A stretch of DNA of 64,000 nt, from assembly GCA_951812745.1 (NCBI GenBank), contig OX638327.1:744001-808000 (forward strand), written 5' to 3'. The stretch comes from an uncultured Nitrospirales bacterium. GTDB lineage: Bacteria > Nitrospirota > Nitrospiria > Nitrospirales > UBA8639. How positions within the stretch are numbered: the stretch's first letter is position 1; every line of letters begins with the position of its first letter. Under the pieces are notes generated by a model, which saw only the letters and a program-made list of their open reading frames with translations, was not told the origin of the DNA and searched no databases. This document shows positions 59,281-59,448 of the stretch, piece after piece. The position numbers were made by a program, and so were the translations under genes.

Positions 59281-59295
59281 GACGTTCACGAGCGC

Positions 59296-59331
59296 AAAAA
59301 AAAACCTTCCCCTCGAAACGAGAAGAAGGTT
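59296..59331 (-). terminator. attenuator terminator of the pyr operon
   Basis: Read on the minus strand: AACCTTC, two G-U pairs, CTCG, loop TTT, CGAG, GAAGGTT, then nine T in a row. It lies directly between the promoter and pyrR, so it can end transcription before the operon. Confidence 0.9.
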
Positions 59332-59380
59332 AAACGAATGAAGGGCAACCCTTGCCCGGGCACATGATCATGAATGAACT

Positions 59381-59403
59381 CCTTCCTCACCTCACGGGAT
59401 GAG
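59381..59403 (-). promoter_or_regulatory. PyrR-binding hairpin and antiterminator
   Basis: Minus-strand CTCATCCCGTGAGGTGAG (59403-59386) holds the PyrR-binding core UCCNGNGAGGY, with CTCA/TGAG closing pairs. GAGGAAGG (59388-59381) overlaps its 3' arm and can instead pair with CCTTCTTC (59329-59322) of the terminator, with one G-U. The two folds exclude each other, as in known pyr attenuators. Confidence 0.8.
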
Positions 59404-59419
59404 CATTAAAGGTGAAAAT

Positions 59420-59448
59420 ATCCTAAAAGGTCCGGAGGGTTTAGTCAA
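59420..59448 (-). promoter_or_regulatory. sigma70-type promoter of the pyr operon
   Basis: Minus-strand TTGACT (59448-59443) and TAGGAT (59425-59420), spacer 17. It lies just after the stop of the upstream gene and gives a leader of about 130 bases. Confidence 0.7.

Follow-up and report, generated by a model that had tools for sequence, protein, structure and literature searches.

Introduction

The regulatory protein PyrR is the textbook case of a protein-controlled RNA switch, and it is taught from Bacillus. In the pyr attenuators of B. subtilis and B. caldolyticus (Rfam family RF00515), a protein of the PyrR family is combined with a binding hairpin, which has the loop CNGNGA and a purine-rich bulge, and with a terminator, all in front of pyrR-pyrB-pyrC-car; the Rfam model also contains an internal antiterminator stem, and there are three sites per genome. 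Other bacteria control their pyrimidine genes by other arrangements. In the enterobacterial pyrBI leader (pyrL), a ribosome on an open reading frame (ORF) running into the terminator prevents termination, and the signal is UTP-sensitive pausing of RNA polymerase, without a PyrR protein or a binding hairpin. In Mycobacterium smegmatis, PyrR-dependent repression is translational, and the PyrR site overlaps a ribosome-binding site. Furthermore, for the pyrR leader of Thermus strain ZO5, Van de Casteele and co-workers reportedly proposed in 1997 a translating ribosome on a leader ORF and no RNA antiterminator.

The locus described here lies in a stretch of 64,000 nt, which is called the window as a whole. 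It is like the Bacillus attenuators in the protein family, the hairpin with its loop and bulge, the terminator and the position before the pyr genes, but Nitrospirota leaders differ from them in having a leader ORF with its ribosome site in the hairpin, in lacking the Rfam model's internal antiterminator stem and in occurring once per genome instead of three times. The model proposed below shares the ribosome step with pyrBI of E. coli and differs by the pausing signal and the absence of PyrR there. In M. smegmatis the PyrR site blocks the first pyr gene itself, whereas in Nitrospirota a leader ORF and then a terminator come in between. The proposal reported for Thermus ZO5 is similar in arrangement, in that a ribosome on a leader ORF replaces the RNA antiterminator; however, it concerns another phylum and came from one leader, while the present comparison covers 90. 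Our literature search found no description of PyrR attenuators in Nitrospirota, and this phylum is absent from the groups listed by Sun et al. 2013 (PMC3766115). The element is of a known kind, a PyrR attenuator, in a phylum for which no published description was found, and its second half departs from the textbook case.

The attenuator and its operon

On the minus strand the order of elements is promoter, PyrR hairpin, 49 nt, terminator, nine T and pyrR (Table 1). The original prediction had named a promoter, a hairpin, an antiterminator and a terminator with nine T before pyrR, and all of them are present within a base or two. Only one promoter-like site occurs in 59250-59550 (0.3 +/- 0.4 in shuffles). 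Its end is 20 nt from the hairpin core, a spacing shared by the best promoter-like match of 49 among 88 relatives. Transcription would be expected to start near 59413. The hairpin (59413-59381, ACCUUUAAUGCUCAUCCCGUGAGGUGAGGAAGG) is made of a lower stem (59412-59408 with 59385-59381), a purine-rich bulge (59407-59404), an upper stem (59403-59398 with 59391-59386) and the loop CCGUGA (59397-59392). Its core is UCCCGUGAGGU, in which the outer A-U pair of the consensus is replaced by C-G, as predicted; this is no peculiarity, since C-G is the commonest form in Nitrospirota. The hairpin folds with -9.1 kcal/mol (z -1.6) and the terminator with -16.9 kcal/mol (z -4.1), the latter in agreement with a terminator scan.

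Table 1. Elements of the pyr leader and genes of the operon, in window positions
Feature	Position	Strand	Basis
Sigma-70-like promoter, TTGACT-17-TAGGAT	59420-59448	-	sequence; same distance to hairpin in relatives
PyrR-binding hairpin (anti-antiterminator)	59381-59412	-	Rfam match, fold, covariation in 90 relatives
Shine-Dalgarno of leader ORF, AAGGAG	59379-59384	-	sequence; four bases inside hairpin 3' arm
Leader ORF, 13 codons, putatively translated	59330-59371	-	frame openness; pyrR overlap in relatives
Small hairpin inside leader ORF, GGGCAA-GGG-UUGCCC (tentative)	59343-59357	-	Nitrospiria only
Possible RNA antiterminator, 59388-59381 (GAGGAAGG) with 59329-59322 (CCUUCUUC)	59322-59388	-	fold of cut transcript
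Intrinsic terminator, 13-bp stem 59331-59303 and nine T 59304-59296	59296-59331	-	terminator scan, fold, relatives
pyrR, regulator / uracil phosphoribosyltransferase	58708-59280	-	NCBIfam/Pfam
pyrB, aspartate carbamoyltransferase	57791-58711	-	NCBIfam/Pfam
pyrC, dihydroorotase	56445-57764	-	NCBIfam/Pfam
DUF4149 membrane protein, between pyrC and carA	55780-56316	-	
carA, carbamoyl-phosphate synthase small subunit	54454-55626	-	NCBIfam/Pfam
SppA-type peptidase, between carA and carB	53493-54461	-	
M48 metalloprotease, between carA and carB	52570-53574	-	
carB, carbamoyl-phosphate synthase large subunit, 1098 aa	49267-52563	-	named from translation only

Downstream of the attenuator the pyrimidine genes follow in the order pyrR-pyrB-pyrC-carA-carB, in keeping with the original reading; protein families support the first four and the translation supports carB. 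For pyrR, the ATG at 59280 is preferred over the GTG at 59289, and a close relative is without that GTG. The gene has no clear Shine-Dalgarno sequence after the T-run (59280-59303); in many relatives a purine-rich terminator 3' arm is followed by seven T and ATG, and the arm could serve as the Shine-Dalgarno sequence of pyrR. In addition, genes without a known pyrimidine role are present inside the operon (52570-56316, minus strand), and an ORF of 600 aa just upstream of the pyr promoter (59471-61273, minus strand) has no Pfam or NCBIfam match.

The PyrR protein scores 238.7 bits with the equivalog model NF003549 (cut-off 138) and contains the PRPP loop, which places it in the PyrR family. Solved structures close to it are B. 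subtilis PyrR (1a3c, E 1.6e-64) and 1ufr (E 1.8e-57), the latter named a pyr mRNA-binding attenuation protein. Across 85 aligned proteins, the PRPP loop, the basic Arg29, His32, His148, Arg149 and Lys160, as well as Thr164, are kept, and several of these presumably play a part in RNA binding; judged from its sequence, the protein is intact. It is 85-91% identical to proteins of metagenome-assembled genomes labelled Nitrospira or Nitrospirales and 70% identical to that of Nitrospira moscoviensis; the genome is that of a Nitrospirales bacterium, and the suggestion of a Nitrospirota-like genome was right.

Distribution and covariation of the PyrR hairpin

The leader matches RF00515 with 52.8 bits (E 1e-5), which is 1.2 bits short of the 54-bit gathering score, and no family exceeds its own gathering score anywhere in the 64,000-nt window. 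It is the sole strong match in the complete 2.35-Mb genome, where the next best reaches 18.7 bits, and a genome of the same family passes the gathering score at 56.0 bits. Across the phylum, 254 of 296 genomes have RF00515 matches (E <= 1), 46 of them above the gathering score. Of the 14 genomes used as controls, B. subtilis and L. lactis alone exceed it; two others match weakly, so some of the weakest matches can be expected to be chance. Thermus composti, one of the controls, gives a weak signal only.

When loci were picked by the PyrR protein alone, the strict core YCCNGNGAGGY was found right upstream of pyrR in 39 of 43. The other four comprise a contig that starts at the gene, two loci labelled Desulfuromonadales with diverged cores (one of them matching Rfam with 42.4 bits) and one further locus. 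In the phylum of one PyrR hit labelled Desulfuromonadales, 21 of 148 genomes contain an RF00515 match. The locus had been pointed out as a non-Firmicute case; this is true, but with such numbers in the phylum and on the Desulfuromonadales side it is not exceptional. A wider regulon with several PyrR sites per genome was considered and rejected: outside a single genome, second matches are weak and chance-like, and one site per genome is therefore typical. In that single genome, two strong PyrR leaders occur on separate contigs, both followed by a pyrR of their own.

For the comparison of leaders, 141 distinct sequences were collected, 139 of them with a good terminator, and reduced to 90 at 85% identity. 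In one pair of the upper stem, AT (43) alternates with GC (42), and 86 of 90 leaders are paired (shuffled, 62.5 +/- 2.6); the next pair is CG 42, AT 27, GC 13 or GT 5, with 87 of 90 paired (shuffled, 41 +/- 4.6), and the following one TA 55, CG 16 or TG 15, while the loop CNGNGA is kept. Compensatory change in the hairpin 59386-59403, whose absence had been named as grounds for refuting the original prediction, is massive, and the prediction clearly survives this check. The element thus has the binding hairpin of RF00515, with loop, stem and bulge conserved and kept by compensatory change, before a pyr gene and in a genome that encodes PyrR. A chance hairpin beside an ordinary terminator, with no PyrR regulation at all, would agree with a score just short of the gathering threshold, but it is contradicted by the phylum-wide conservation right upstream of pyrR, the strong covariation and the intact PyrR, and it is extremely improbable. 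The attenuator of the window is real. The Rfam match, the conservation and the compensatory changes strongly support control of this Nitrospirota pyr operon by PyrR attenuation.

A leader ORF under the hairpin

The original prediction did not mention a leader ORF or its Shine-Dalgarno sequence in the 3' arm of the hairpin. The AAGGAG at this place is an ideal Shine-Dalgarno sequence and is followed after 7 nt by the ATG of a short ORF (ATG ATC ATG TGC CCG GGC AAG GGT TGC CCT TCA TTC GTT TAA), which ends in a stop codon (59332-59330) of which two bases belong to the terminator stem. A start codon lies 4-14 nt after AAGG in 83 of the 90 leaders (43 +/- 5 expected from dinucleotide shuffles), and it is ATG in 66 (22 +/- 4 expected); seven leaders are without a start codon at the usual place. 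In 79 of the 83 no stop codon interrupts the frame before the terminator arm, compared with 28 and 48 when this stretch is read in the two alternative frames. The remaining four ORFs stop short of the arm, all within 7 nt; 24 have their stop codon in the terminator and 55 downstream of it. As is characteristic of leader-peptide attenuation, a leader ORF with a ribosome site is open into the terminator.

Moreover, the leader stop codon overlaps the pyrR start by 4 nt (ATGA or GTGA) in 17 of the 83 leaders (other frames, 1 and 3), and in 29 the ORF ends no more than 8 nt from a potential pyrR start (other frames, 5 and 6). Such overlap of stop and start codons typically signals translational coupling and so adds a separate line of evidence for the leader ORF probably being translated. 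It raises the possibility that both devices act at once, the leader ORF mainly coupling translation to pyrR as a feedback on the amount of PyrR and RNA folding deciding termination, for which the overlaps and the possible antiterminator of some leaders speak. However, the leader ORF gets to the terminator, or to within 7 nt of its arm, whether pyrR is reached or not, and in the window coupling cannot be its role since it stops about 50 nt before pyrR; this combination is very unlikely.

A conserved peptide product was also considered and rejected. Relative to the leader start codon, the terminator arm occurs in each of the three frames (22, 34 and 27 leaders), and pairwise codon differences within the genus of the window are mostly non-synonymous (176 versus 94 synonymous). 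Since the arm is found in every frame and the peptide changes freely, the kept feature is ribosome access to the terminator.

In Nitrospiria loci a short G + C-rich hairpin lies within the leader ORF (CCGGC..GCCGG in one of them), and it is absent in more distant relatives. A role in polymerase pausing is conceivable; as a phylum-wide element this hairpin was rejected, its weak support being confined to Nitrospiria. Purely translational control in distant relatives, which the short distance between hairpin and pyrR had suggested, was likewise rejected, as a terminator lies between the two in nearly all leaders.

The leader-ORF layout is present in 16 of 19 leaders of a Desulfobacterota-side sample. 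In a small control set of Bacilli, no start codon is found at the leader position in the leaders of B. velezensis pyrR and pyrB, Listeria and Lactobacillus; in a single Paenibacillus leader a GTG stands just at the limit of the start-codon range. The layout is present in a further control, the PyrR leader of Acetoanaerobium noterae (Clostridia), and ribosome-type PyrR attenuators may exist inside Firmicutes too.

RNA antiterminator or ribosome

The window's attenuator could also be of the classic Bacillus type, as originally proposed, with an RNA antiterminator as the alternative fold to hairpin and terminator and with no role for the leader ORF. RNA-antiterminator PyrR attenuation is established in B. 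subtilis (PMC7430163), which counts for this explanation. In the window the antiterminator has 8 contiguous pairs and overlaps the PyrR hairpin, and when the transcript is cut before the terminator 3' arm the antiterminator beats the hairpin; for these reasons the Bacillus mechanism keeps some chance in the window itself. Among the cut transcripts of the 90 leaders, however, the antiterminator wins in just 20 and the hairpin is preferred in 62. Pairing energies of each leader's own arms were also compared with those of arms exchanged among leaders, giving z values that are indicative only because leaders under 85% identity were treated as independent. Own arms pair better by z -17 in the PyrR hairpin and by z -22 in the terminator. 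The antiterminator, formed by the hairpin 3' arm and the terminator 5' arm, shows a slight cognate excess of 0.5 kcal/mol (z -2.8 overall), but this is absent in the more distant half of the leaders (z +0.7). In addition, the Rfam alignment of the window leader omits the model's internal antiterminator stem, and an RNA antiterminator leaves the start codon, the open frame and the pyrR overlap unexplained. The mutually exclusive pairing that had been traced base by base is therefore correct in the window, but its antiterminator arms barely coevolve across the phylum. Similarly, the interpretation as PyrR attenuation stands, and a Bacillus-type antiterminator can form here, yet relatives conserve the leader ORF instead. 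We regard the classic Bacillus-type mechanism as unlikely, though deserving more weight than the other alternatives.

The preferred reading, to which we assign a probability of about 0.68 from comparative sequence evidence, is a PyrR attenuator in which a translating ribosome, in place of or alongside a second RNA fold, would act as the antiterminator. The ribosome probably keeps the operon on, since the hairpin and the leader's ribosome-binding site overlap and the ORF runs into the terminator.

Proposed mechanism

When UMP is plentiful, PyrR-UMP would clamp the hairpin 59412-59381. As its 3' arm is the leader ribosome-binding site, this site would be hidden and the leader left untranslated; the terminator 59331-59303 would then form, transcription would end near 59296 and the operon would be off. 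When UMP is scarce, PyrR would release the RNA, and a ribosome could open the weak hairpin (-9 kcal/mol) and trail RNA polymerase through the leader ORF. By textbook ribosome dimensions, a ribosome at the leader stop codon would cover about 59335-59320, nearly the whole terminator 5' arm, so that the terminator would be blocked and pyrR-pyrB-pyrC-carA-carB transcribed.

Implications

In the phylum of the nitrite-oxidizing Nitrospira, the same protein and the same hairpin appear to be used with a ribosome instead of an RNA fold as the second half of the switch. On balance we lean towards the wider view that RF00515 hides two mechanistic classes, and that Nitrospirota, Desulfobacterota and perhaps others control ribosome entry at a leader ORF through PyrR, so that the ribosome serves as antiterminator, and often couple the ORF to pyrR translation. 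If this is true, the Bacilli with their RNA antiterminator would represent one alternative, which may be a derived one, and ribosome-type PyrR control would read UMP plus the translation capacity of the cell. The 1997 Thermus proposal becomes testable by comparison, and a widespread unannotated leader gene is indicated. The comparison also shows how a single regulatory hairpin can be connected with more than one kind of output.
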